Origin: Bacillota bacterium
GTDB lineage: Bacteria; Bacillota; Sulfobacillia; Sulfobacillales; Sulfobacillaceae
Direction: 5' to 3'
Assembly: GCA_023511625.1 (NCBI GenBank)
Contig: JAIMBD010000002.1
Span: 1-64,000 of the forward strand
DNA: 64,000 nucleotides
Shown here piece by piece: positions 975-16,379 of this stretch (position 1 is its first letter; each line of letters begins with the position of its first letter). The notes under the pieces are model-generated. The model was given only the letters and a program-made list of their open reading frames with translations, was not told the origin of the DNA and made no database searches. A program made the position numbers and the translations under genes.

Positions 975-1985
975 TCAGTACTCGCGCTCTTCGTAAAAAC
1001 CGGTGACGACACGCCCCCGTTCTTGGGGCGAAGCCAGGTGCACCTCGCGGCCGCGCTCAGGCCCGGTCAACAGCCGGATGCGTGGACGCGCCGGCCACTC
1101 CACGGTATTGGCCAAGACTACGGCCACCTCTGACCCCACCCGAATCACGGCCCCCACCGGATACGGTGCCAAGGTGTGCTGCAAGGCTTGCACCAGGTTT
1201 AGGGGGTATTCGAGGTCGGCGCCGCCCATGACCCATTCCAACGCCTCGTGCACCGGCACCGGTTCGGCATCGGTGCGAAACAGCAAATACGTCAACGCCT
1301 CGGCCAGGCCCACGATCAGCGCGCCCACGTAGATCTTGTTGCCTGCCAACGGCGGGTGGCCCGAGCCGTCCCACCGGGCGTGGTGCTGAATGAGACTGGC
1401 GATGGTGGTCGAGGCCACGGTGGGAAATTGGCGCAGCTTTTCCACCAACTCCACCACGTGGGCGGCGTCACTCTCCCGCACCTCGCCCCGCTGTCGATCG
1501 GGATAGGCCAACCCGAGCCACAGCGCAGCCAAGCCCACCTCCTCGGCCCGGCTTGGCGCCACCCGCTGCGCCAGTTGGATCGCCAGCCCCACCGTGTTGA
1601 TCCACGCCGTGAAGGCCGGGCTACCTCCCTGGTGGGGAGAGACCAGCTCAAAGGCCCGCCGGCGAGCAGCCGGAAGGTTGTCCATGACCTCTTGCACCAG
1701 CGCGCGCGCCTCTTGGGTGTCCTTGACCGAGAGCGCGCGCACCTCGCGCGCCATCCACCGTTGTAGCTCCGGCAAGAGCGACTCCGGAAGCCAAGGGTCC
1801 GGATCGATATCTTCAAACCCCGGCCATTCGACCGGCAGCACCTGCAGATGCCATCGCTCCAACTGCGCGAGCAAGCTTTCGGTCAAGATCGTCCCCGCGC
1901 GGAGCACCACGCGCCCATCGGCGTGACGAATGGTGTCGGCCACCACATCGCCCGGCCGACACTGCGCAATCGGTAACAGTCGCAT
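975..1985 (-). CDS. Degenerate HD-GYP domain protein
   Basis: The protein has 336 residues. The C-terminal half aligns with HD-GYP c-di-GMP phosphodiesterase domains: HHARWDGSGHPPLAGNKIYVGALIVGLAEALTYL keeps the HH...DGSG-P core. The upstream HD signature expected around residues 160-200 (H..R..., HDIGK) is replaced by INTVGLAIQLA and LAYPDRQ, so the metal site looks incomplete. It may bind c-di-GMP or protein partners rather than hydrolyse the nucleotide. The N-terminus (MRLLPIAQCRPGDVVADTI) resembles the entry segment seen before many HD-GYP domains. Start ATG 1985 is preceded by GGTAGGAG. It lies downstream of cheY in the chemotaxis operon, suggesting cross-talk between chemotaxis and c-di-GMP. 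Confidence 0.75.
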   Translation of the reverse strand: MRLLPIAQCRPGDVVADTIRHADGRVVLRAGTILTESLLAQLERWHLQVLPVEWPGFEDIDPDPWLPESLLPELQRWMAREVRALSVKDTQEARALVQEVMDNLPAARRRAFELVSPHQGGSPAFTAWINTVGLAIQLAQRVAPSRAEEVGLAALWLGLAYPDRQRGEVRESDAAHVVELVEKLRQFPTVASTTIASLIQHHARWDGSGHPPLAGNKIYVGALIVGLAEALTYLLFRTDAEPVPVHEALEWVMGGADLEYPLNLVQALQHTLAPYPVGAVIRVGSEVAVVLANTVEWPARPRIRLLTGPERGREVHLASPQERGRVVTGFYEEREY

Positions 1986-2074: not shown

Positions 2075-2434
2075 TCAGCCATGCCGTCCCCACTTGCTGA
2101 CGGCCGCCAGCACCCGGTCGGGTTGAAACGGCTTGACGATAAAGTCCTTGGCCCCGGCCTGAATCGCCGCCAGCACCATGGCCTGCTGCCCCAAGGCCGA
2201 CACCATCACCACCCGAGCCTCGGGGTCTTCGGCCGTCAAGGCCCGCACCGCTTCGATCCCGTCCATCTCCGGCATGGTGATGTCCATCAAGACCAGGTCG
2301 GGCCGCTCGGCCCGATACCGGTCCAGCGCTTCCCGTCCATTGCCGGCCTCCACCACCGTATGCCCTTGATCCTCTAACAGCTTTCGAAGCCGAAGGCGCA
2401 TGAAGGCAGCGTCGTCGACGACCAAGATCTTCAC
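2075..2434 (-). CDS. cheY: Chemotaxis response regulator CheY
   Basis: This is a single receiver domain of 119 residues. Visible residues are the acidic pair in VVDDAAF (about residues 7-8), the phospho-acceptor Asp in LVLMDITMPEMDG, the Thr/Ser position in MVSALG, and Lys in IVKPF. There is no output domain, so it should act by binding the flagellar switch. Bacillus-type PEMDGIEA wording is typical of CheY. The GTG start overlaps the TGA of cheC as GTGA, which indicates translational coupling. CheA upstream in the operon is the expected kinase and CheC the likely phosphatase. Confidence 0.92.
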   Translation of the reverse strand: MKILVVDDAAFMRLRLRKLLEDQGHTVVEAGNGREALDRYRAERPDLVLMDITMPEMDGIEAVRALTAEDPEARVVMVSALGQQAMVLAAIQAGAKDFIVKPFQPDRVLAAVSKWGRHG

Positions 2435-3048
2435 TGCGGTGCCCCCTTCTCGGCCGCCGAAGACGACCCATCCCGCCACGGCCGCGGCACCACCACCAAG
2501 TACCCCTCCATCACGGCCGGACCCACCCGCAAAAGGGCCTCGGACAATAGCACGGCATCCTGCGGTTTCCAATGGGGGAAGATCCGTGCCACTACCTCCG
2601 CAAACGGCCCCACGGTCACCTCGGGAGGCGTCGGCTCCCAAGGTTGTTGAAAGGTGTCGGCAAAGACGTTCAAGAAGGCCGTGCCCAGGATGTTTCCCAC
2701 CTCGGCCAAGGCCGAGGAGCCGAGTTCGTCGAGCTCGAACGGCTCCGAAGGCGGGCTTCCGGTGAGCACCGCCAACAATCGGGCCGCATCGGCCTGGGTG
2801 AAGACCAGAAGGATGTCGGCCGGAAACAATCCGAAGGCACCGAGATGGGTGGCATAAACCGGGTCGCGTTCTGGATTTTCCAGGTGAATCTTGCTCTCCA
2901 ACTCCGGCCACGCCACTGTGCGGGTGCCGACGCCGGTCAACTCCACCGGCTGCGCAGTCAGGTGCGACAGCGCCTCGCCGGCCCGCTTCAGAGCCGGTTG
3001 GGTCAATTTGTTCCAGATGCGCAGCGTATCGGGGTTCCAGGGGTTCAC
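2431..3048 (-). CDS. cheC: CheC-family CheY-P phosphatase / CheX-like protein
   Basis: The protein has 205 residues. One phosphatase signature of the CheC/CheX/FliY family is clear: SSALAEVGNILGTAFLNVFAD (helix with S/D-x3-E-x2-N). The second signature found in most CheC proteins is not evident in the C-terminal half, so this may be a one-site member. These proteins dephosphorylate CheY-P and, with CheD, tune receptor deamidation in Bacillus. No cheD is seen in the window. The GTG start overlaps the cheA TGA as GTGA, and its own TGA overlaps the cheY start in the same way. Confidence 0.8.
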   Translation of the reverse strand: MNPWNPDTLRIWNKLTQPALKRAGEALSHLTAQPVELTGVGTRTVAWPELESKIHLENPERDPVYATHLGAFGLFPADILLVFTQADAARLLAVLTGSPPSEPFELDELGSSALAEVGNILGTAFLNVFADTFQQPWEPTPPEVTVGPFAEVVARIFPHWKPQDAVLLSEALLRVGPAVMEGYLVVVPRPWRDGSSSAAEKGAPQ

Positions 3049-5741
3049 GCCGGCACCTCCTCCTTCGACGACAGATGCGAATCAGGCAACAACAGCCCGG
3101 CCACGGTCCGCGCCAACAGGGCGGGGTCGAACTTGGTCACGATGGCGTCCGCCTCCACTGTGGCCGAGCGCTGGGCGTGCCAGTGGCCCGAGAGCGAGGT
3201 GTGCAAAAGGACCGGGAGCGCCGCCGTCCTGGGATCGCGTTTGAGCCGATGGGTCAGGGTGTATCCGTCGAGTCGCGGCATCTCCACGTCCAGCACAAAC
3301 AGGTGCGGCAAAGGCTCGCCGGCCTCTACCGCTTCCCACACCGCCATACCGTCGGAGAAGGTCCGCACTTCCAGCCCCAACGGCTCGAGGGCCTTCTCCA
3401 CCTGGCGCACCGCCACCAGCGAATCGTCCGCCAGCCACACACGGCGCCCACGTCCGGCCCCTGTGGCCTCCGGAAGTGGGGGGAACGCCGGTGGCATCAC
3501 TTCGGCCAAGATCTGTTCGAAGTCGATGAGTTGGATGGGCCCCCACTGCGGATGGTCGATGAGTCCTGTCAGCCGGCGGCGGGCCGGGTCTCGGGTGCCG
3601 AGGATGGCTGGCAAGGGTTCGACCGCCTCCCAACTGACGCGGAGCATACGCTCCACCTCGGGGACGGGGAAGGCCTGCACGGTCTGATTGAATTCGGTGA
3701 TGATCATCAGGTCGGACGTCCCGCCGGGGACGCCCAGCGCTTGGGCCAGATCCACCACCGGGACGGTCTGGCCCCTCAGGCGCGCAAATCCTGCCAGCCA
3801 CGGGTGCTGGCCGGGCACGCGCGTGATCGGCGGCGCCACCACGACCTCGCGGGTCTTGTACACGTTGATGCCGTACCGCTGGCCATCGGCCAGACGGAAC
3901 ACCAACAGCTCCATCTGGTTGGATCCCGCCCGCAGCACATGGTCGTCCGCCACCTCGCGCCGCTCGACGCCGGTCTGGGGAACCAAACGGCGCACGTCCA
4001 ACATAAAGCTCAGGCGGCCGTCGCCCAACAGGGCCACCCCTGTCATCCACGGAGTCAACGTGGTCAAGGCCGCGATGGGCTTGACAACCACCTCCTGCTG
4101 CCCCAGCACCTGGTCTACGGCCAAGGCCGCGCGGGTGCGCCCGTCCCGTACCCGAACCAGGTATGCGCCACTGCTCCCCCCTGGGGCCTCGGGGTCCAAG
4201 AGCGCAGCCAATTCGTAACAAGCCACCGGTTCATCGCCCTCGGCCACTGCCGACTGCCCCAGCACGGTGCTCACGGCGGCAGCGCGCCGCTCTTCGATGC
4301 GCTCCACCACCCCGATGGGCAGGCCGACGGTGAAGGGGCCTGCCTCCACCAAAAGCGCGGTCAAAATCGCCATGGTCATCGGCAACTCCAGGTGAAACGT
4401 GGTTCCTTGTCCGGGAGTGCTCTCCACCGTCACCGTGCCGTGCACCTGATCCAAAAACGCGCGCACGGCATCGAGGCCGACTCCCCGCCCGGAGAGATCG
4501 GTGACCTGGGCTGCCGTGGACAATCCGGGCCGGAAGAGGAATTCCTGGAGGTCGGCAGGCGTGGCCTGGGTCGCGTCTTCCGGCCGAAGCCAACCGCGTT
4601 CCACCGCCTTTTCCCGCACTGCCTGCCAGTTGATGCCTCGCCCGTCGTCCCGGATGCGCAGGTGCACGTGGCCTTCCGCGGCGTAGGCCTCCAACCGGAT
4701 GACGCCGGTAGGGGACTTCCCTAGCGCCTGACGTTCCCCCGGAGATTCGATGCCGTGGTCACAGGCGTTGCGCAAAAGGTGAAGCAGCGGCTCGTGCAAC
4801 GAGTCCATCACCAGGCGGTCGAGTTCGGTCTCGCCCCCTACCGTCTCGAGACGGATGGTCTTACCGAGCTTGAGCGCCAAGTCATGCACAGCCCGCGGAT
4901 ACTGCCGAAACAAGCGGTCGAGCGGCAACATGCGGGCGCGCAGCGTGGTCTCCTGCACCTCCAGGGCCTTGCGCCGCAGATGGCTCAGGAGATTGCGGGT
5001 GGCGGCATCGACCTTGCCGGCCAGTTGGTGTTCCAGCTGGGCCTCATCGAGCAGCAGCTCCCCGATGGTCTCCAGCAGCCGCTCGATGGTCTCGACCCCG
5101 ATGCGCACGGTGTTCTCCCGCCCGGTAGGAGCCGCCGCCTCGCCGGCCTCGGTCGTCGCTTCTCCTTCGGGCCCCTCCACCCGTACCACGTCGTCGACCG
5201 TGGCCAAGGCGGCGCGCACGCGGGCAGGATCGACCGTAGCCGGCAGCCACAACCCTACCGGACGGTGGTCCCACTCCGCCAGCGCCTCAGGCGCCACCTC
5301 CAACTCCGCCTCCGGGGCCACTGCCGAGACGGCCTGAAAGGCTTGATAGGCGCGCACTCCCGGCATGGGGCAAGCGGGGTCGAGCACCAACACCCACCGC
5401 CGACGCTGTGCCGGAGCCGCCGGATTCCTGCTCCCTTGAAGCTCCGCCCGCAGGCGGTCCACCGTTTCCAATACCGCCGTCCGCACCGCTTCGTCGTACG
5501 ACCGCTCCCCGCGGCGCACGGCGTCGAGCACCTCCTCCAACGCGTGCGCCTGCGCCACCCATTGGTCAAGGCCCACCATTCCCCCCGATCCTTTTAGGGT
5601 GTGGGCAGCGCGAAACAAGGTGTCTACGGCAGGCCGTTCTGCCAAGGCCTCGGTTTCCAGCGCATCTAACAGTTCGCGGGCCTCCTCGACAAACAGGGCC
5701 CGCTCTTCCGGCCGCTCCCAGGTCACTTCTTCGAACCGCAT
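3045..5741 (-). CDS. cheA: CheA histidine kinase fused to a CheV module (CheA-CheW-CheW-REC)
   Basis: The protein has about 898 residues. Domains in order are Hpt 1-105 with phospho-His47 (AAHTLKGSGG), a CheY-binding-like segment about 115-190, a dimerisation helix pair about 212-265, and a HATPase 270-455 with the N box (LRNACDHGIE) and G boxes (DDGRGI, GRGVGLDAV). A first CheW-like domain spans 456-595, a second 605-755, and a receiver domain 767-888. The receiver keeps D772/D773 (LADDS), phospho-Asp about 818 (FVLDVEMPRLDG) and Lys about 870. CheW-REC is the architecture of CheV, so this is a CheA-CheV fusion. ATG 5741 is chosen because AGGAGG lies 7-8 nt upstream; a GTG at 5747 is too close to it. 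The intrinsic receiver could be an adaptation or phosphate-sink element. Confidence 0.9.
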   Translation of the reverse strand: MRFEEVTWERPEERALFVEEARELLDALETEALAERPAVDTLFRAAHTLKGSGGMVGLDQWVAQAHALEEVLDAVRRGERSYDEAVRTAVLETVDRLRAELQGSRNPAAPAQRRRWVLVLDPACPMPGVRAYQAFQAVSAVAPEAELEVAPEALAEWDHRPVGLWLPATVDPARVRAALATVDDVVRVEGPEGEATTEAGEAAAPTGRENTVRIGVETIERLLETIGELLLDEAQLEHQLAGKVDAATRNLLSHLRRKALEVQETTLRARMLPLDRLFRQYPRAVHDLALKLGKTIRLETVGGETELDRLVMDSLHEPLLHLLRNACDHGIESPGERQALGKSPTGVIRLEAYAAEGHVHLRIRDDGRGINWQAVREKAVERGWLRPEDATQATPADLQEFLFRPGLSTAAQVTDLSGRGVGLDAVRAFLDQVHGTVTVESTPGQGTTFHLELPMTMAILTALLVEAGPFTVGLPIGVVERIEERRAAAVSTVLGQSAVAEGDEPVACYELAALLDPEAPGGSSGAYLVRVRDGRTRAALAVDQVLGQQEVVVKPIAALTTLTPWMTGVALLGDGRLSFMLDVRRLVPQTGVERREVADDHVLRAGSNQMELLVFRLADGQRYGINVYKTREVVVAPPITRVPGQHPWLAGFARLRGQTVPVVDLAQALGVPGGTSDLMIITEFNQTVQAFPVPEVERMLRVSWEAVEPLPAILGTRDPARRRLTGLIDHPQWGPIQLIDFEQILAEVMPPAFPPLPEATGAGRGRRVWLADDSLVAVRQVEKALEPLGLEVRTFSDGMAVWEAVEAGEPLPHLFVLDVEMPRLDGYTLTHRLKRDPRTAALPVLLHTSLSGHWHAQRSATVEADAIVTKFDPALLARTVAGLLLPDSHLSSKEEVPA

Positions 5742-5765
5742 CGCCACCCCTCCTAGCCGCCCGAC

Positions 5766-6215
5766 CTACCCGCGCGCTCTCCCCCACGTCTCCGCCTCGG
5801 CCCTCAGGCGGATCGGCAGGTCTGGCTCAAAGGCCCACACCCAACCCGGCCCATATCGCCAGCCTGCCGATACCAGCGGCAAAATCCGCGGCGGCAGGAG
5901 TCCTTGCCACGCCTCCCGGGCCAAGGGCGGTCCCGGCTCCCACAGCGCGTCCACTCCGTCCACAGCCACCAGCACCACCTCGCCGCCCACCTCCCAGCGC
6001 AAGGCGAACCGGGCCGCAGTCGGGTCAAGGCCCAACAGCGGGCGCAGGGTCCAAAGCGCCAGCGGCTGCCCGCGGACTACGGCCACGCCCGAAACCAAGG
6101 GCGGCGTGCGCGGCACGCGCACCTCGGTGGGGCGGTCCAGAATCTCGGTCACCTGGGCGATGGGGGCCCCAAACCCATATGGTCCGATTTGGCAAACCAA
6201 GAGCGACTCGGCCAT
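5766..6215 (-). CDS. cheW: CheW-like chemotaxis coupling protein
   Basis: The protein has 149 residues and a single CheW fold. The N-terminus (LLVCQIGPYGFGAPIAQVTEIL) matches the usual first strand and VxEIL motif. It is followed by VSGVAVVRGQPLALWTLRPLLGL, the counterpart of the family motif around GvvnlRG...vidL. It should bridge the chemoreceptor and CheA. The ATG at 6215 overlaps the receptor stop as TGATG with GGAGGAGGT seven bases upstream. A GTG one codon earlier is spaced too tightly from the ribosome site. CheA follows after 24 bp. Confidence 0.85.
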   Translation of the reverse strand: MAESLLVCQIGPYGFGAPIAQVTEILDRPTEVRVPRTPPLVSGVAVVRGQPLALWTLRPLLGLDPTAARFALRWEVGGEVVLVAVDGVDALWEPGPPLAREAWQGLLPPRILPLVSAGWRYGPGWVWAFEPDLPIRLRAEAETWGRARG

Positions 6216-6985
6216 CACCGACCTCCTCCGGGGCTTGGCGCCCCTGCCTCAGAGTGGCCGTGGAGGACCTTTAATTGCTCCGACAAACCCGCGAGGGTAT
6301 CCTCGATGGTCTGGGCGGCGCGTTGCGACTCCTCCGACAGCTTCTTCACCTCTTCCGCCACCACCGCGAACCCGCGGCCTTGCTCTCCGGCTCGGGCGGC
6401 CTCGATGGCGGCGTTGAGCGCCAAGAGGTTGGTCTGCCGCGCGATGTCGCGAATCAAAACAGTCGCCGCCTGAATGGCTTCGGCCTGCCCGCCCAAGGCC
6501 TGCGTCACGGTAGCCAGACGCTGGTTCAACACCTCTTGATAGCGGGTCGAGACCGTGACCATATCCATCGTCAGCCGCTTCGACGCCGCTACAAATGCCC
6601 GCTGTCGCATCGCCGCCTCCTGGGGCCATTGCCGCTCCACCTGTTGCGCGACCCCTTCCCAGATCATGCGGTAGGCCAGAAGGTACCACTGCGAATCCAG
6701 TCCAATGCGCACGTGGGCAGCCACGATGGCCTCCAGGCGCGGCCGCAAGGTCGGGTCCTGGGGGCTCGTGCCGAGGTCGCCCAAATACTGCCGCAACGTC
6801 TCCGCCAACCGTTCGTACGTGGTGTGCGCCCGCACCAGCCGGTCCAACTCTGGAACCTCGCGGATGCGGGCATAAAAGCGCGGCGGCACCTCTTTCGCCA
6901 CCGCGTCCCAATCGATGCGCCGAAGCCACTCGCTGTCCTGGTCCCGCCACTCCAACAACCGATTGAGGTCTTGCCACTCGGTCAC
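6215..6985 (-). CDS. Globin-coupled soluble chemoreceptor (HemAT-like, minimal)
   Basis: The protein has 256 residues and no transmembrane segment. Residues 1-120 resemble the protoglobin sensor of Hem[19 protein letters not shown] at 91-107 matches the family H-x-x-IGL-x-x-x-WY segment, making His91 the candidate proximal heme ligand. Residues about 175-235 are an MCP signalling tip ([20 protein letters not shown], then [18 protein letters not shown]). The signalling part is far shorter than in ordinary receptors and seems to lack long methylation helices. The expected role is oxygen sensing and aerotaxis through CheW/CheA encoded next. GTG 6985 is chosen for its GGAGGAG site; an upstream GTG at 7075 has none. 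Confidence 0.82.
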
Positions 6986-7078: not shown

Positions 7079-8716
7079 TTACTGGCGATTTTCCGGCCCT
7101 TCGCTCCCGTCAGAACGGTAGGGCAGACGCCTGTCACGCCGTGCGCCCTCATCGGACCAGGTTCCCTCCAGCCACTCCCAGACGACCTCGGGCGGCAGGG
7201 CCGGGCCAAAGAGAAAGCCTTGGCCGGCATGACAGCCCCACTCCAACAACGCCTCCACCTGCGCCGGACGTTCCACCCCTTCGGCCACCACCGTCACCCC
7301 CAGGGGGCGCGCCATGCCGATGATGGCCTGGATGATGGCCCGTGCCGTGGGTGAATCCCAGTCGCTGAGAAAGCTGCGGTCGACCTTCACGGCGTGGATA
7401 GGCAGGTAGTGCACATGCGCCAGGGAGCTGTAACCGGTGCCGAAATCATCGAGGCTCCACTGAAACCCGATCTGGGCCAAGCGCCCCATCACTTCCCGCG
7501 TGCGCTCGATATCCGTCAGTGCCGCCGACTCCAAGATTTCCAGATGGATGGCGGCCGCGTGCAGAAAGGGGTAGCCGGCCAGCAAGCTGAGAAGCCGGTG
7601 GGCCCAATCGGCGCGGTCGAGGTCGATGGGGGCCACGTTGACCGCCACATACCCAGGCCAGCCCCGGCGCCGCCACTCGGCGACCGCCGCCACCGCCTGC
7701 CACAGCACCACCTGGTCCAATTGGGCGAGGCGGCCCTCTCGGTCCAGCCAAGGCAGAAATTCGCCCGGCAGATGCACCTGTCCTTGGGGGTCCACATAGC
7801 GCGCCAACGCCTCAAACCCCTGCACCTCGCCGGTCGGCAGGTGAATGATGGGCTGAAAGTAGGCGCGGATGCCCTGGACGCCCTCCGGCGCTAAGAGTTC
7901 GCGCACCCACCACGGCGCGGCCAGGTCCCGGGGAGCGCCCCGCCTGCCGTGGCGGGCGAGTGCCCACTGGGCCTGATGCCACACCGCCTCGACGCTGTTG
8001 CCGTCGTGCGGAAACCGCGCCACGCCGACCCGAAGCGTGAGCCCCAAGCTTTGCGCCAACCGGCGCCACCGCCTGAAGGCGTGGAGCAGCGTTCGGCCAT
8101 CCCACGCCCCTACGAAGACGGCGGCCACCCGTCCCTCTTCCAGACTGACGCTCCACCCGGTGGCCCGCGCCGGCTCGGCGGCGGCCAGAAGGCGGCGCGC
8201 CGCTTCCTCGCCGGACAGCGCCTCCGCCGCCACCTCGAGGATCATCAGAACGGCGGGCTGCCGTTGAGCCACGGCCCGGGCCAGGCGCCGACTGGCATGG
8301 AGGGGCGCACCCGGGATTTCGGCCGCACAAGCGCGCTCTAGTCCCCCCACCCAGTCTAGCGCCGCGCGCTTGACAGCCGCCACGAGCTCCACCGGCGTGG
8401 CCCCCCGGCGCCGCGCTGCCGCCAACAGCTGCGGCAGCACGGTGCACCAACGGGCCAAGGCCTGGACGGGGTCGACGGGATCCAATGGCGGGCCCACCCA
8501 CGGCCTTCCGCCGGCTTCGGGATCCAGAGCCCGCACATACTCGACCAACCCGTCCGGCAACGCCGCCCGGGCCTGCCCGCGGGCCAGGTCCTCGGCCACC
8601 ACTGCCCAGTCGACGCGGTGAAGGAGGATGCGGTCGCGCGCAGTCCACTCCAACCCCTGGGGACGCGCCGCCTCGTCACCAGACACCTCTGCTCCCGCGC
8701 CGCGCTCCTGGTCCAT
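7079..8716 (-). CDS. Degenerate GGDEF-EAL c-di-GMP phosphodiesterase with globin-like N-terminus
   Basis: The protein has 545 residues. The EAL domain (about 280-520) has the key elements: GFEALARY, VAVNVAP, HLEILESAAL, LDDFGTGYSSL, VKVDRSF, VVAEGVE and GQGFLFGPALP, so it is probably an active c-di-GMP hydrolase. Residues about 150-260 are a GGDEF fold without the GGDEF motif (EEGRVAAVFV stands there), ending in RVGVARFPHDGNSVEAVWHQAQWAL. Residues 20-130 share a pattern with the adjacent receptor: LEW...VDWAVVAEDL against LEW...[10 protein letters not shown] with identical spacing. They later align over the heme-ligand helix with Arg in place of His. ATG 8716 follows a GAGGGGG site. It is the first gene of the chemotaxis operon. 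Confidence 0.85.
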   Translation of the reverse strand: MDQERGAGAEVSGDEAARPQGLEWTARDRILLHRVDWAVVAEDLARGQARAALPDGLVEYVRALDPEAGGRPWVGPPLDPVDPVQALARWCTVLPQLLAAARRRGATPVELVAAVKRAALDWVGGLERACAAEIPGAPLHASRRLARAVAQRQPAVLMILEVAAEALSGEEAARRLLAAAEPARATGWSVSLEEGRVAAVFVGAWDGRTLLHAFRRWRRLAQSLGLTLRVGVARFPHDGNSVEAVWHQAQWALARHGRRGAPRDLAAPWWVRELLAPEGVQGIRAYFQPIIHLPTGEVQGFEALARYVDPQGQVHLPGEFLPWLDREGRLAQLDQVVLWQAVAAVAEWRRRGWPGYVAVNVAPIDLDRADWAHRLLSLLAGYPFLHAAAIHLEILESAALTDIERTREVMGRLAQIGFQWSLDDFGTGYSSLAHVHYLPIHAVKVDRSFLSDWDSPTARAIIQAIIGMARPLGVTVVAEGVERPAQVEALLEWGCHAGQGFLFGPALPPEVVWEWLEGTWSDEGARRDRRLPYRSDGSEGPENRQ

Positions 8717-9953: not shown

Positions 9954-10148
9954 TCACCGGCGCGTCAGTTCCGCCATCGGCACCCCACCGACGGCCCAGT
10001 GGGTCTTCGGCAGTTCGTACACCAACACCCGCACCGTTTCCGGCGCCGCGCCCAGTGTCCGACAGATGGCAGCCGTGACCTCTTCCATCAATTGCCGTTT
10101 CTGTTCCGGGCTGCGCCCTTCCAGAATGTGAATCTGCGCCAGCGGCAT
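9954..10148 (-). CDS. praC: 4-oxalocrotonate tautomerase (2-hydroxymuconate tautomerase)
   Basis: The protein has 64 residues including the initiator Met. After Met removal the chain starts with catalytic Pro1, and Arg11 (HILEGRS), Arg39 (ETVRVLV) and Trp50 (KTHWAVGG, where the archetype has Phe50) fall at the expected positions. The enzyme converts 2-hydroxymuconate to 2-oxo-3-hexenedioate as a homohexamer. It follows the decarboxylase gene by 27 bp and ends the ring-cleavage operon, just before the 14-bp hairpin. The match to known 4-OT sequences is close throughout. Confidence 0.95.
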   Translation of the reverse strand: MPLAQIHILEGRSPEQKRQLMEEVTAAICRTLGAAPETVRVLVYELPKTHWAVGGVPMAELTRR

Positions 10149-10175
10149 GCGCGATGCGCCCCCTTCCCCCGGCCT

Positions 10176-10952
10176 TCAAGTCACCACCCGCAACGGAATG
10201 GTGCCTAGCCCTTCGAAGCCAATGTCGACCCGGTCGCCGGCCGCAAGGTGCACCGCTTCGGTGATCCCTCCCGTCAGAACCACCATTCCCGCCTCGATCT
10301 GCGCCCCGATGCGGTCGAGCATCCGCACCAACGTCACCACCGACTGCACGGGGTGCCCCAAGACGGCGGCGCCGGCGCCGGTCTGCACCACCTCGCCGTT
10401 CTTGGTCACCACCACCCCCACCTCGTCCCATCGTGCGGCATAGGGCGCATACCCCTGGTCGCCGACGTAGAACCGACACCCCGAGGCGTTGTCGGCCACG
10501 ACGTCGATCAAGGTGAAGGAAAAGTTCTGGTACCGGCTGTCGATGATCTCAAACGCCGGGAGCACGCACTCAGTGGCCAGCCACACGTCGCGCGGCCGGA
10601 CCGACGGCCCCCCGAGGCTGCGCTTGAAAACAAACGCCAGTTCCGGCTCGACCCGCGGATGGATGGTCCCGGCCAGGTGCAGAACCGGTTCGCTAAGCTC
10701 CATGGCCGCCGTCAGCCGCCCATAAATCGGCTCGGCCACCCCCATCGACCGCTGCTTGGCGGCGCTGGTCAACCCCATCTTCCAGCCCACCACCCGGTCG
10801 CCGTCGGCCACCATGCGGTCGACCACCAATTCCTGGATGCGGTAGGCGTCCTCCACCGTCAGGCCAGGCCACCGGTCGGTGACCCGCCCCATTTCCTGGG
10901 CTTGGCGCTGGTGTTGAAAAATCCAGTCTGCGATCCGCCCGAGTTCCTCCAC
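10176..10952 (-). CDS. praD: 4-oxalocrotonate decarboxylase
   Basis: The protein has 258 residues of the hydratase/decarboxylase family (DmpH/XylI and DmpE/XylJ). Decarboxylase-type wording is seen at KMGLTSAAKQRSMGV, EPIYGRL, EIIDSRYQNFSF and GGITEAV, distinguishing it from the hydratase paralogue in the same operon. The family uses a divalent metal held by a Glu-rich site (PRVEPELAFV region). It converts 2-oxo-3-hexenedioate to 2-hydroxypenta-2,4-dienoate plus CO2 and normally complexes with the hydratase. The GTG start at 10952 is preceded by AAGGAG. Confidence 0.87.
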   Translation of the reverse strand: MEELGRIADWIFQHQRQAQEMGRVTDRWPGLTVEDAYRIQELVVDRMVADGDRVVGWKMGLTSAAKQRSMGVAEPIYGRLTAAMELSEPVLHLAGTIHPRVEPELAFVFKRSLGGPSVRPRDVWLATECVLPAFEIIDSRYQNFSFTLIDVVADNASGCRFYVGDQGYAPYAARWDEVGVVVTKNGEVVQTGAGAAVLGHPVQSVVTLVRMLDRIGAQIEAGMVVLTGGITEAVHLAAGDRVDIGFEGLGTIPLRVVT

Positions 10953-10969
10953 GCTCTTCGCTCCTTCGC

Positions 10970-12013
10970 CTACTGGGCCCCCTGCCCCGCCAGAACCTTC
11001 TTGCGATTGGCCAATTCGACCGCCACGTCGACGATCATGTCCTCCTGGCCACCCACGACCTTCCGCCGCCCGAGCTCCACCAAGATGTCGCGGGGATCGA
11101 CCCCAAACTGTTCGGCGGCGCGGTAGGCGTGCAATAGGAAGCTCGAGTACACCCCGGCGTAGCCCATGGTCAGGCTCGGCTTGTCGATGATCACCGGCCG
11201 CACCATCCGCGGGCGGACCACGTCCTCGGCGGCGTCCATGGCGGCATAAAGGTCTACACCGGTTTCGATACCCATCTTGTTGCACACCGCCACGAACACC
11301 TCAAGCGGCGTATTACCGGATCCTGCACCGAGCCCTGCTGCGCTGCAGTCGATGCGGGTGGCCCCTTCCTTGACGGCCGCCACCGAATTGGATACCGAAA
11401 GCCCGAGGTTGTTGTGGGCGTGAAATCCCACCTCCACCTCTGGCGCCAGAGCCGCGCGCAGGGCCGCCACCCGAGCGCGCACGTCGTCCTCTACCATGGC
11501 CCCGGCCGAATCGACCACGTACACCACCTGGGCGCCGTATGACTCCATCTTCTTGGCCTCTTCAACCAACTTCTCGGGAGGCACCATGTGGGCCATCATC
11601 AAGAAGCCGACCGTGAAGAGCCCCATCTTGCGGGCCACGCCGATATGCTGTTCCGAGATGTCGGCCTCGGTGCAGTGGGTGGCGATGCGGATGGCGCGGA
11701 TACCGTATTCCACGGCCCGCTTCATGTCCTCCACGGTCCCGATGCCCGGTAACAAGAGGGCCGCCACGGTCGAGTGCTGGACCGACTGGCACACCGCCTG
11801 GAGGTAGTCCGCCTCGGTCTCCTTGGCCATGCCGTATTGGACCGAACTGCCCCCGAGCCCGTCGCCGTGCGCCGCCTCGATCATCGCCACGCCGGTCTTA
11901 TCTAGCGCGGTGGCGATGGCGCGGGCGTCGTCGACCGTAAACTGGTGGCGCACTGCATGCATGCCGTCGCGCAGGGCGACGTCGGTGATTTTCACCTGGT
12001 ACTTGGCCGTCAT
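10970..12013 (-). CDS. praF: 4-hydroxy-2-oxovalerate aldolase
   Basis: The protein has 347 residues of the DmpG/MhpE family. The N-terminal LRDGMHAVRHQFT carries the catalytic Arg and metal-binding Asp, HGDGLGGSSVQYG follows, and VGFHAHNNLGLS with GLGAGSGNTPLEV completes the TIM-barrel active site. It splits 4-hydroxy-2-oxovalerate into pyruvate and acetaldehyde and channels the aldehyde to the partner dehydrogenase encoded immediately upstream. The ATG at 12013 has AAGGAGGG eight bases upstream. The downstream decarboxylase starts 17 bp after its stop. Confidence 0.95.
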   Translation of the reverse strand: MTAKYQVKITDVALRDGMHAVRHQFTVDDARAIATALDKTGVAMIEAAHGDGLGGSSVQYGMAKETEADYLQAVCQSVQHSTVAALLLPGIGTVEDMKRAVEYGIRAIRIATHCTEADISEQHIGVARKMGLFTVGFLMMAHMVPPEKLVEEAKKMESYGAQVVYVVDSAGAMVEDDVRARVAALRAALAPEVEVGFHAHNNLGLSVSNSVAAVKEGATRIDCSAAGLGAGSGNTPLEVFVAVCNKMGIETGVDLYAAMDAAEDVVRPRMVRPVIIDKPSLTMGYAGVYSSFLLHAYRAAEQFGVDPRDILVELGRRKVVGGQEDMIVDVAVELANRKKVLAGQGAQ

Positions 12014-12061
12014 GGACGCCCTCCTTCCTCTTCCCCGTCCCGCCTAAGCGCCGGTCGAGAC

Positions 12062-12949
12062 CTACTGCCCCACCGGGATGCGGTGTTTGGCGAACTCCTC
12101 CCCGACTTTGGTGGCCGCTGCCGTCATGATGTCGAGGTTGCCGGCGTAAACCGGCAGAAAGTCGCCGAGCCCTTCGACTTCGATCGAGATCGAGACCAAA
12201 TTGTCGCGGTAAATGGGATCTCGGTTGAGCCGATACCCCGGTACAAAGCTTTGCACGTGGCGCACCATGTCGCGAATGGACTGGTCGATGCGCTCGTAGA
12301 CGTCGTCGCCGGTCTCGTCGATCAGGCAGTAAATGGTGTCGCGCATCAAGATGGGCGGCTCTGCGGGATTGAGGATGATGATGGCCTTGCCGCGCCGGGC
12401 CCCGCCGATGACTTCGATGGCTTTGGCGGTGGTCTCGGTGAATTCGTCGATGTTCTGCCGCGTCCCCGGCCCCGCACTCTTGCTGGCGATGGTGGCCACG
12501 ATTTCCCCATAAGAGACGCCGACGACGCGCCGTACGGCGTAGACCATGGGGACTGTGGCCTGGCCGCCGCAGGTCACCATGTTCACGTTCAAGGCGTCTA
12601 AGTGGTCGCCCAGGTTGACCGCCGCGATGACGTAGGGGCCGCGCGCGGCCGGCGTCAGGTCAATGGCTTGAATCCCCGCCTCGCGCAAGAGCTTAGCGTG
12701 ACGGACGTGGGCCTTGGCCGAGGTGGCGTCAAAGACCAGATCCGGCCGCACCCCCCGTTCCAAGAGTTTCGGCAGGCCGTCGGCGTTCACCTCCAGGCCC
12801 AGCCTGGCGGCGCGCTTTAGGCCCTCCGACTCGGGATCGATGCCGACCATCCAACGCGGCTCCACCCACTGACTGCGCAGAAGCTTATACATTAAGTCGG
12901 TTCCGATGTTGCCCGATCCGACAATGGCCGCTTGCAACTTCGTGGCCAT
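12062..12949 (-). CDS. praG: Acetaldehyde dehydrogenase (acetylating)
   Basis: The protein has 295 residues of the DmpF/MhpF family. The N-terminal [10 protein letters not shown] is the NAD-binding loop and [15 protein letters not shown] holds the catalytic Cys. The tail ([16 protein letters not shown]) is typical. It oxidises acetaldehyde from the aldolase to acetyl-CoA within a channelling complex. The ATG at 12949 follows GGGAGGGCGT and starts only 2 bp after the hydratase stop, so the two are co-translated. Longer in-frame extensions upstream run over the hydratase gene and are not needed. Confidence 0.95.
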
Positions 12950-12951
12950 GG

Positions 12952-13743
12952 CTACGCCCTCCCTCCCGCAAACGCCGCTTCCACCGACCCAAGACGCCCA
13001 AAATGCGCCCGCACCGCATCGCCGGCGGCCACCGGCACGGCTGCGCTCACCGAACCCGACAACACCACGTGACCGGCACGCAGCACCGTGCCGAACTCCG
13101 CGAGCTTGTTGGCCAGCCACGCCACGCCCCAACCCGGGTGGCCTAACACGGCTGCGCCGGCGCCGGTTTCAACCACCTCGCCGTTCTTCCACAACACCAT
13201 TCCGACCGTACTCAGGTCCACCGCCCCCACAGGACTGGGTTGACCGCCTAAGACAAAACACCCGGCCGAGGCATTGTCGGCCACGGTATCAACCAGTTTA
13301 ATGCGCCAGGCGGCGATCCGGCTGTCGATGACCTCCAGCGCCGGCACCACGTACTCGGTCGCACTCAGCACATCGTGCAGCGTCACGCCGGGACCGGCAA
13401 GGTCGCGCCGCAGCACGAACGCAATCTCCGGCTCTACCCGGGGCTGGATCAGCTGGCGCTGGATCACCTGTCCCGAGGCGTACCACATCGAGCGAAACAG
13501 GTGGCCGTAATCCGGCTCCCCCACCCCCAACATGCGCTGCATCGGCTTGGAGGTCAACCCGATCTTGTGCCCGACCACCTCCTCGCCTTGCGCCACCTTA
13601 CGCTCCACCACCCCCAACTGAATGCGGTAGGCGTCGACCACCGTCAAGCTAGGGTCGGCCTCGGTCAAGGGGGCGATGGGCTGTCCGGTCCGTTCCGCCT
13701 CCCACAACCGGGTAGACCACTCGGCCAAGGGCTCCTGTGCCAT
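12952..13743 (-). CDS. praE: 2-hydroxypenta-2,4-dienoate (2-oxopent-4-enoate) hydratase
   Basis: The protein has 263 residues of the DmpE/MhpD family. The hydratase-type segments [45 protein letters not shown] and VVLSGSV separate it from the decarboxylase paralogue (KMGLTSAAKQ, PIYG, NFSF, TGGI). It adds water to 2-hydroxypenta-2,4-dienoate to give 4-hydroxy-2-oxovalerate, the aldolase substrate. The ATG at 13743 has GGAGG eight bases upstream. The gene follows the semialdehyde dehydrogenase after 14 bp. Confidence 0.9.
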
Positions 13744-13757
13744 GTTCCGCCTCCGAG

Positions 13758-15194
13758 TTACAGCTTGATGCACACGTTGGACAGCTCGGTGTAGAATTCG
13801 AAGCTGTGCATGCCGCCCTCGCGCCCGATCCCGCTTTGCTTCATCCCGCCAAACGGCGTACGCAGGTCGCGCAAGAACCAGGTGTTGACCCAAATCACCC
13901 CGGCCTCGATTTGCGCCGCCACCCGGTGCGCGCGCTTTAAGTTGGTGGTCCAGATGGTAGCCGACAGCCCGTAATGGGTGTCGTTCGCCATTGCCACCAC
14001 CTCGTCCTCGGTGTCGAACGGCTGCACCGTGACGACGGGTCCGAACACCTCCTGCTCAACGATCTCGCAGTGCGGCGCGACATCGACGATGATGGTGGGC
14101 TCGAGGTAGTAGCCGCGGGAAAGGTGGCTCGGGCGTTTACCCCCCACCAAGATGCGGGCCCCGTCGCGCACTGCGCGCTCGATGAACCCTTCCACCCGCA
14201 GCAGGTGCTCCTCGCTGATGAGCGCCCCCACGTCGGTCTTGGGATCAAAGGGGTCGCCCACCACCAGTTGCCGCGTGCGCGCTGCCAACCGGCTGACGAA
14301 CTCGTCGTACAAGGGGCGCTCCACATAGATCCGGGAACCGCACAGGCACACCTCGCCCTGGTTGGCAAAACTCGATCGGATGGTGGTCTCGATGCAGTCG
14401 TCGAGATCGGCATCGGCAAATACGATGTTGGGATTCTTCCCTCCCAGCTCAAACGACAACCGCTTGAGGGTCGGTGCAGCGGCCGCCATCACCGCTTTGC
14501 CGGTGGTGGTCTCGCCGGTCAGGGAGATGAGGTTGACATCCGGATGCTCCACCAAGGCCGCGCCGGCTGAATCCGGGCCGAACCCGTGCACCAAGTTCAG
14601 CACCCCATCGGGCAACCCTGCCTCCTTGGCCAGTTCGGCCAGTTTAGTGGCCGTGGTCGGCGTAAGTTCGGCAGGCTTCATGACGCAGGTGTTGCCCGCC
14701 GCCAGGCACGGCGCCACCTTCCAAGTCAGGAGCAACAGCGGCAGGTTCCAGGGAGAGATGAGACCGGCCACGCCCACCGGGTGGCGTACCGCGTAGTTCA
14801 GGGCGATGTCGTCAGTGGCGTAGGCTTCGGTCCCCAACCCTTTCACGTAGTCGGCGAAAAACCGAAAGTTGTAGGCCGCCCGCGGGATGTCGAGGCTCTT
14901 GGACAGGCTGAGCGGCTTGCCGGTGTCGAGCGTCTCCAGTCGGGCCAATTCGTCGAGATGCTGCTCGATGAGGTCCGCCAAGCGGTTGAGAATCTGCGAG
15001 CGCTTGGCCACTGGCATGCGGCCCCAGGTCTTGAAGGCCGCCCTCGCCGCGCGCACTGCGCGGTCCACCTCGGCGCGGCCGCCCTCCGCCACCAAGCTCA
15101 GCACCTCGCCGGTCGCCGGGTTGATGTTCTCAAAGAACCGCCCGTTCTCGGACGGCACAAACTCTCCGTTGATAAAATGCAGCAGTTTATCCAC
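13758..15194 (-). CDS. praB: 2-hydroxymuconate-6-semialdehyde dehydrogenase
   Basis: The protein has 478 residues of the aldehyde dehydrogenase superfamily. Catalytic Cys is in SSFANQGEVCLCGSR, the wording characteristic of hydroxy- and aminomuconic semialdehyde dehydrogenases, and the general base Glu is in FELGGKNP. The C-terminus (RDLRTPFGGMKQSGIGREGG) is also diagnostic. It oxidises the ring-fission semialdehyde to 2-hydroxymuconate with NAD. GTG 15194 is chosen, with GGAGG about ten bases upstream; an ATG nearby is out of frame. In another setting this family acts on 2-aminomuconate semialdehyde, so the exact substrate is inferred from the operon. Confidence 0.9.
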   Translation of the reverse strand: MDKLLHFINGEFVPSENGRFFENINPATGEVLSLVAEGGRAEVDRAVRAARAAFKTWGRMPVAKRSQILNRLADLIEQHLDELARLETLDTGKPLSLSKSLDIPRAAYNFRFFADYVKGLGTEAYATDDIALNYAVRHPVGVAGLISPWNLPLLLLTWKVAPCLAAGNTCVMKPAELTPTTATKLAELAKEAGLPDGVLNLVHGFGPDSAGAALVEHPDVNLISLTGETTTGKAVMAAAAPTLKRLSFELGGKNPNIVFADADLDDCIETTIRSSFANQGEVCLCGSRIYVERPLYDEFVSRLAARTRQLVVGDPFDPKTDVGALISEEHLLRVEGFIERAVRDGARILVGGKRPSHLSRGYYLEPTIIVDVAPHCEIVEQEVFGPVVTVQPFDTEDEVVAMANDTHYGLSATIWTTNLKRAHRVAAQIEAGVIWVNTWFLRDLRTPFGGMKQSGIGREGGMHSFEFYTELSNVCIKL

Positions 15195-15438
15195 CTGTAC
15201 ACGCCCTCCATTCGCCCGCCGACCCGACGAGCACCGATCCAACCCCTTCTGCTTCCCCAGAATACCCCCAGGGGCATTCCCGCAATGGCTTCGGACTGCG
15301 GTCGCGTCCACCGAGTCCAGCCGAGGCCTCTCGGGGAGGCTCTACGGCCTCAGTCTTTCCGTCGGCTGCCACATTGGGCTTGCCTTTCACTATACCCTAC
15401 TGCAGGGCCTGGCACCACCGCACCGGCGCACGCCGCGC

Positions 15439-15458
15439 CCCCCTGTGGCGACAGGGGG
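15439..15458 (-). terminator. Hairpin directly after the dioxygenase stop
   Basis: CCCCCTG at 15439-15445 pairs with CAGGGGG at 15452-15458 around a six-base loop, immediately beyond the stop at 15461. There is no T-run after it. It may end part of the transcript or protect the dioxygenase mRNA. The 15195-15438 stretch between the first two genes of the operon holds nothing else I can name. Confidence 0.45.
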
Positions 15459-15460
15459 TG

Positions 15461-16273
15461 TCAAGCCCCCTGGGGGTGCATGACGATGACCGGGTTGCCG
15501 CTGCCGGAGGACTGGCCCCACCCCAGGTACTCGCCCCGGAAGGCGGTATCGCCCATAACACCGAGCCAGGTCGCCACGTGGCGCCCGCCGGCTTCCACCC
15601 GCGCCAACTGGGAGAACTGAGGCAAGATGGCCCACGCCTGCGCCAGGTCGCCCTCCAGGACCAGCCGCACGAAGTGGTCCTCCATGCTCTGCTCCATGGG
15701 TGTGGGCTTGCGCTCGGGGCCGCGCAAAATGTTGTGCGCCAAGGCCCCAGAAGCGAGGAAGACCGCCCGCTTGGGCTGCTCGCGCAACACGCGGCCGATG
15801 ATCTGCCCCAACCGATAGGTTTCCTCTAAACTCGCGGTCAAACAAACCGTCATGTTGATGACCGGCAGGTCGGCCTTGGGCGTCAGGTAGCGCAACGGCA
15901 CCACCGACCCGTAATCCCAGACATAGGTGGGGTCCTCCACCGCGATGACCGGCAGGCCCTCTGCCCTGCCCGCCTCTACCAACGCGCGCGCCAAGGCGTT
16001 GTCACCGGGGTAGCGGTAGTGCAGGTTGGAGATGAGGTCCGGGCATTCCATAGCCGTCAGCACGCCTTCGTGTACCGGCGTGGCATCGATGTAGTGGTTA
16101 AAACTCGCCACCCAGTGGGTGGACACCAGGACCAGCACCTCCGGCCGCACCGCGTACAGGCGCTCCGAGGCGCGGTGCATGGCTGCTACCAGCTCTTTCT
16201 GAAACTCCGGCACCTTGTCCTCGTAGCACATACGGGGGGTGTGCGACCCCAAAATCGTCAATTCCAGACTCAC
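15461..16273 (-). CDS. praA: Class III (LigB-type) extradiol ring-cleavage dioxygenase, probable protocatechuate 2,3-dioxygenase
   Basis: The protein has 270 residues. LigB/HpcB-class features are ILGSHTPRM at the N-terminus (first iron-ligand His), VSTHW, the central DYGSVVPLRY, LASGALAHN and a C-terminal GQSSGSGN. The class holds homoprotocatechuate 2,3-dioxygenase, 2-aminophenol 1,6-dioxygenase and protocatechuate 2,3-dioxygenase (PraA). The downstream gene order equals praBEGFDC and a decarboxylase gene faces it, which favours PraA. 2-Aminophenol or catechol cleavage remains possible. The start is GTG with a weak AAGGGG site. It is the promoter-proximal gene of the operon. Confidence 0.8.
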   Translation of the reverse strand: MSLELTILGSHTPRMCYEDKVPEFQKELVAAMHRASERLYAVRPEVLVLVSTHWVASFNHYIDATPVHEGVLTAMECPDLISNLHYRYPGDNALARALVEAGRAEGLPVIAVEDPTYVWDYGSVVPLRYLTPKADLPVINMTVCLTASLEETYRLGQIIGRVLREQPKRAVFLASGALAHNILRGPERKPTPMEQSMEDHFVRLVLEGDLAQAWAILPQFSQLARVEAGGRHVATWLGVMGDTAFRGEYLGWGQSSGSGNPVIVMHPQGA

Positions 16274-16379
16274 CGTTTCGCCCCTTTCCGGGTTCCCCTA
16301 GATCCCTCATAAGCGACAGCCCGGCCGCCGGTACCGGCGCCATCCGACTGCACCTTGAACCGCCGAGGACCCTGTTTAC

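Follow-up and report, generated by a model that had tools for sequence, protein, structure and literature searches.

Protoglobins in general bind heme. They precede c-di-GMP domains in globin-coupled enzymes such as DosC/YddV, BpeGReg and PccGCS, and further globin-coupled relatives include the protoglobin phosphodiesterase Chp1 and the GCS-HD-GYP protein of Vibrio fluvialis. Globin-derived sensors without heme are also known: the RsbR N-terminal and Bacillus anthracis sporulation-inhibitory sensors retain the whole globin fold. In the MabR type, a non-heme globin is combined with a GGDEF-like domain and an HTH (PMC11617747). In globin-coupled sensors (GCS), helices B, C, E and F make up the heme pocket, and the bundle at the dimer interface consists of G and H (PMC12805357).

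The stretch of DNA analysed here (the window) comprised positions 1-64000 of contig C8, in a genome of 2.59 Mb in 40 contigs. It contains a chemotaxis cluster that begins with an EAL protein, P0001. The features of P0001 and of the cluster are as follows:

7079..8716, minus strand: EAL protein P0001, 545 aa (ATG at 8716, stop at 7079)
8582..8653, minus strand: retained Z-helix, residues 22-45, LEWTARDRILLHRVDWAVVAEDLA (31.6 bits with the family protoglobin profile)
8408..8473, minus strand: helix-G remnant, residues 82-103 (best G-helix position, only 4.3 bits)
8327..8398, minus strand: helix-H remnant, residues 107-130, with VKRAALDW (best H-helix position, 5.2 bits)
7931..8275, minus strand: degenerate GGDEF-like domain, about residues 148-262 (EEGRV instead of GGDEF)
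7202..7870, minus strand: EAL phosphodiesterase domain, residues 283-505 (Pfam PF00563, 8.9e-61)
6215..6985, minus strand: protoglobin chemoreceptor P0002 (Protoglobin 8.5e-18, MCPsignal 1.6e-27)
5766..6218, minus strand: CheW (PF01584, 5.8e-11)
3045..5747, minus strand: CheA, carrying two CheW-like domains plus a receiver at its C-terminus
2431..3048, minus strand: CheC-like protein (PF04509, 0.00066, slightly below the curated cut-off)
2075..2443, minus strand: CheY-like receiver (PF00072, 2e-33)
about 975..1985, minus strand: degenerate HD-GYP-like protein, last gene of the cluster (PDB 4r8z match)

Like the globin-coupled c-di-GMP enzymes, P0001 has protoglobin-derived Z, G and H helices before its c-di-GMP domains, and the heme His of these enzymes is still present in its paralogues within this genome. 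Unlike them, P0001 itself has a deleted heme pocket, a degenerate GGDEF domain, an EAL domain that appears active by sequence, and a location in a chemotaxis cluster. As in MabR, a globin without heme is followed by a GGDEF fold lacking the catalytic motifs; however, MabR keeps its globin fold and has a DNA-binding end, whereas the globin of P0001 is shortened and its C-terminus is an EAL enzyme. With the RsbR and B. anthracis sensors it has in common a globin-derived sensor without heme, but its proximal-helix region is gone. The adjoining receptor P0002 is a HemAT-type chemoreceptor whose Z-helix signature recurs in P0001, which, unlike this type, has neither an MCP domain nor a heme site.

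All genes of the cluster, from the EAL to the HD-GYP-like gene, are co-directional on the minus strand, the EAL and receptor genes being separated by about 93 bases. Their order (EAL, protoglobin-MCP, CheW, CheA, CheC-like, CheY, HD-like) is identical in the sister-species genome G001, the only other genome of the genus, where the orthologue of P0001 (L021; 49% identical over residues 18-520) is kept within the matching cluster. The HD-GYP-like protein, which carries HHARWDGSGHPP, matched the c-di-GMP phosphodiesterase of PDB 4r8z (1.8e-5, covering residues 225-294 of the frame used as query), and thus c-di-GMP-related genes lie at both ends of the cluster. No CheR gene was found within the cluster, which is therefore probably an additional chemotaxis set; flagellins and a CheR are encoded elsewhere in the genome. 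Rfam search gave no match in the 64,000-nt window. P0002 has both a heme His and a distal Tyr. Its MCP hairpin is very short (256 aa for the total protein; Pfam model positions 20-101 of 172). Considering that its orthologue, of 251 aa, has the same end point and that other members of the phylum encode several protoglobin ORFs of similar size (about 250-290 aa), P0002 seems to be a genuine short receptor type.

In the GGDEF-like domain of P0001, EEGRV stands at the motif and the metal-binding Asp, FGH and GD segments are gone; both the GG(D/E)EF motif and the metal-binding residues of a diguanylate cyclase are lacking. By contrast, all metal-binding and catalytic residues of the EAL domain (E302, N360, E396, D423, D424, K444, E479 and Q499) are present, so that P0001 is apparently a c-di-GMP phosphodiesterase, as predicted from its sequence. 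An earlier note on this DNA had described both domains in these terms.

Descent of the P0001 N-terminus

The same note had observed that the N-termini of P0001 and P0002 share LEW-(10)-(V/I)DW-xx-VA, and had regarded that of P0001 as a duplicated sensor domain, related to that of its neighbour, which has lost heme. The motif was indeed exact and equally spaced (residues 22-41 with VDW in P0001, IDW in P0002), and in a BLASTP comparison of the two proteins the Z-helix stretch alone was matched (10/23 identical, E 0.007). It should be noted that the shared 'DW' is not conserved in the sister-species orthologue of P0001 (LFW...IPW). With a family profile of 19 heme-ligating protoglobin domains, the Z-helix reached 31.6 bits against -0.6 for the runner-up position within residues 1-160, and the P0001 N-terminus 15.3 bits, with none of 200 shuffles scoring above 3.3; when 842 ORFs were searched with the profile, the whole frame reached only E 0.006. 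Two Trp residues of this helix were found in 18 of 19 family globins (the first in 19/19, the second in 18/19) and in none of 30 protoglobins sampled from other families of the phylum, which have L/I/F/Y and F/I/V/M/L at these positions. Being limited to the lineage in this sample, the Trp-Trp pair is a marker of descent rather than a general helix pattern.

In the profile-profile comparison that the note had proposed, the entire N-terminus aligned with heme globins above controls. A profile of P0001 and its orthologue gave HHalign scores of 36.7 (E 1e-5) against the heme members and 39.5 (E 4e-6 to 9e-6; 3.7e-6 for the globin part alone) against P0002 and its orthologue, compared with maxima of 23.0 and 19.2, respectively, for 60 column-shuffled profiles each and with 12.4 and 10.4 for reversed profiles. 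The bulk of this signal comes from the 24-residue Z-helix. After its removal, the score of the remainder against the heme set (16.8) fell inside the shuffles (maximum 19.1) and was not significant alone; when the 16 remaining distinct members of the family served as the target, the score was weak but higher than in all 100 shuffles (18.8; shuffle maximum, 18.4). The Z-less stretch, from QALARWC to DWVGG, aligned to helices G and H of the family. Pfam search of P0001 gave no protoglobin (PF11563) match at E <= 1, and a solved-structure search with the heme-less profiles found no globin above noise, whereas the heme profile detected HemAT 1or4 at 1.9e-13. Single-sequence AlphaFold prediction (no alignment) reached a pLDDT of 47 for P0001 and only 57 for the control, the bona fide globin of P0002. 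On the basis of the controlled profile comparison, the co-linear architecture and the lineage-specific Z-helix signature, we conclude that the P0001 N-terminus shares descent with protoglobins.

The direct source of this domain is another matter. Three further protoglobins are encoded in the genome, two of them fused to GGDEF-EAL, and, apart from its orthologue, the closest relative of P0001 was a protoglobin-GGDEF-EAL gene on contig C20; a copy of the P0002 domain was thus rejected. This gene and its counterpart in the sister species (the C20/G001C8 pair) are 51-53% identical to P0001 over residues 224 on, and in a tree of EAL domains only, this heme-binding pair was sister to P0001 and its orthologue (support 89/89). 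Together with the gene order in G001, these relationships indicate that the gene was duplicated in the ancestor of the genus and that the copy then decayed. Hence the note was right about globin-coupled-sensor origin and heme loss, but not about copying from the neighbour. No orthologue of P0001 outside the genus was found among 34 family genomes or among 398 of the phylum; the exact P0001-type gene occurs in two species only. A scan of the genome contigs showed one distant EAL.

The missing heme pocket and heme loss across the family

The note had placed RRRGAT of P0001 opposite HVRIGL of the receptor and read a His-to-Arg change in the proximal helix. This register was wrong: both MAFFT and HHalign put a gap of P0001 opposite AHVRIGLDS, and RRRGAT falls between helices G and H. 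Only in the ungapped register does it lie opposite HVRIGL, where the F-helix segment scored -5.5 bits and ranked 24 of 144 positions, and the substitution was rejected. The proximal heme His of helix F faces a gap in P0001 and its orthologue, the segment with the distal tyrosine is also lost from P0001, and about 35 to 50 residues are absent from the Z-to-H stretch of both proteins (about 100 residues in P0001 vs about 130 for an intact globin). With the proximal-His helix missing, the N-terminus is probably a truncated remnant rather than an intact non-heme globin of the RsbR type, to which the note had likened it. HHalign places QALARWC on the G helix, and the helix-H remnant fits the KRxxxD pattern of the family; when the orthologue is taken alone, another H position outscores the assigned one.

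A profile search of the 34 family genomes identified 19 proteins above 450 bits, with ordinary GGDEF-EAL proteins at or below 365 bits. The proximal His is kept in 7 of the 19 members and absent from 12, all of which retain the Z-helix. The tree requires at least three changes of heme state, and a single ancestral loss, with the 12 His-less members held together, was rejected (p-AU 5e-5; 1e-4 without a long-branched pair). Heme binding was taken as ancestral because protoglobins generally bind heme, as do 30 of 30 sampled elsewhere in the phylum. Judged from these sequences, heme loss in the family happened at least twice, and three times on the best tree. The Z-helix W, D and W and a helix-H R are invariant across ten distinct heme-less members. 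The heme-less group matched the heme members with an HHalign E of 1.7e-15, and still with 4.5e-10 after exclusion of the Z-helix and of P0001 and its orthologue.

Several individual members deserve mention. Five proteins (L023, L046, L096, L102 and L103, from G020, G041, G042 and G043) are nearly full-length globin-GGDEF-EAL proteins with an intact GGDEF and no proximal His, and are possible candidates for non-heme or altered-ligand sensors. In G020a, a Tyr is aligned to the proximal His (RYAR vs RHVR). One heme-type member, L024 (G018), has LDNFGTG in its EAL domain instead of LDDFGTG, so that one catalytic Asp is altered.

Possible role of P0001 beside the O2 receptor

We consider it probable that P0001 is a phosphodiesterase derived from a duplicated protoglobin-GGDEF-EAL sensor which lost its heme pocket, kept the Z-helix (helices G and H with weaker signal) and works as a dimer, O2 being sensed by the receptor. 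After duplication in the genus ancestor, the proximal-His helix and the distal-Tyr segment would have been lost and the GGDEF domain would have decayed, leaving helices B, C, E and F mostly gone and Z and apparently G and H in place. The remaining helices may still build the GCS dimer bundle, in which case the EAL domains would work as a dimer that is either constitutively active or under some other control. Since heme is absent, O2 control of c-di-GMP turnover by P0001 itself is unlikely; O2 at this locus would be detected by P0002, with its heme His and distal Tyr, and c-di-GMP might be lowered in parallel because the genes would be expressed together. Thus, P0001 is most likely an O2-blind phosphodiesterase dimer produced alongside an O2-sensing receptor, and a link between O2 sensing and c-di-GMP turnover via the operon is plausible. 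Other family members would have lost heme independently in the same pattern.

A different view is that the N-terminus is functionless and decaying, with selection acting on the EAL domain alone. Between the two species, the P0001 pair is 33% identical in the globin part, 33% in the GGDEF and 72% in the EAL domain, the corresponding values for the intact heme paralogue pair being 46%, 68% and 79%, and such a contrast between the N-terminal parts and the EAL domain is what decay would produce. However, the four invariant Z- and H-helix residues of the ten heme-less members argue against it, and the segment is still in frame, having been dropped in 0 of 12 heme-less members. We regard this explanation as unlikely.

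Less probable still is an intact globin of RsbR or sporulation-inhibitor type, which would keep its fold and hold another ligand in the former heme cavity. Such sensors have precedents, including that of MabR on a degenerate GGDEF (PMC11617747), and the relatives G020a/b, G042 and G043 are almost full length though without His; but the shortened Z-to-H stretch and the gap opposite helix F in P0001 and its orthologue do not fit, and the solved-structure search with their profile gave no RsbR match.

Sensing in trans was also considered, whereby the Z/G/H remnant would bundle with P0002, whose bound O2 would control the phosphodiesterase. The adjacency of the two genes is conserved in two species, 10 of 23 Z-helix residues are common to both proteins, and G and H mediate pairing of GCS globins (PMC12805357). 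On the other hand, the closer Z-helix likeness to P0002 is lost in the orthologue, and the C20 gene, not P0002, is the parent of P0001. This model seems very doubtful, and we would offer only as speculation the related idea that the Trp-Trp motif with G and H is a heme-independent docking device that outlasted heme and pairs the phosphodiesterase with P0002 for O2 switching. Finally, an unrelated helical domain with a fortuitous W-x12-W match, for which low overall identity and the lack of a Pfam globin match could be cited, is hardly credible given the lower-scoring shuffle and reversal controls, the architecture co-linear with globin-GGDEF-EAL paralogues and the lineage-specific Trp-Trp signature.

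Non-heme globin sensors as such are known, but in the present family heme was repeatedly lost beside heme-keeping relatives. Such close relatives provide matched pairs for studying the role of the non-heme parts of globin-coupled sensors. To our knowledge, little function has been assigned to the Z-helix to date; this helix and one helix-H Arg are what stays invariant once heme is lost. In addition, the putative operon joins an apparently active, predicted c-di-GMP phosphodiesterase to an O2 chemoreceptor, so that a possible connection of aerotaxis with c-di-GMP is open to direct testing.

Behind the chemotaxis cluster, at 10000-16300 of the window, lie genes that resemble an aromatic meta-cleavage pathway in appearance (putative semialdehyde dehydrogenase, oxalocrotonate decarboxylase, acetaldehyde dehydrogenase and aldolase), several of which also adjoin the cluster in the sister genome.
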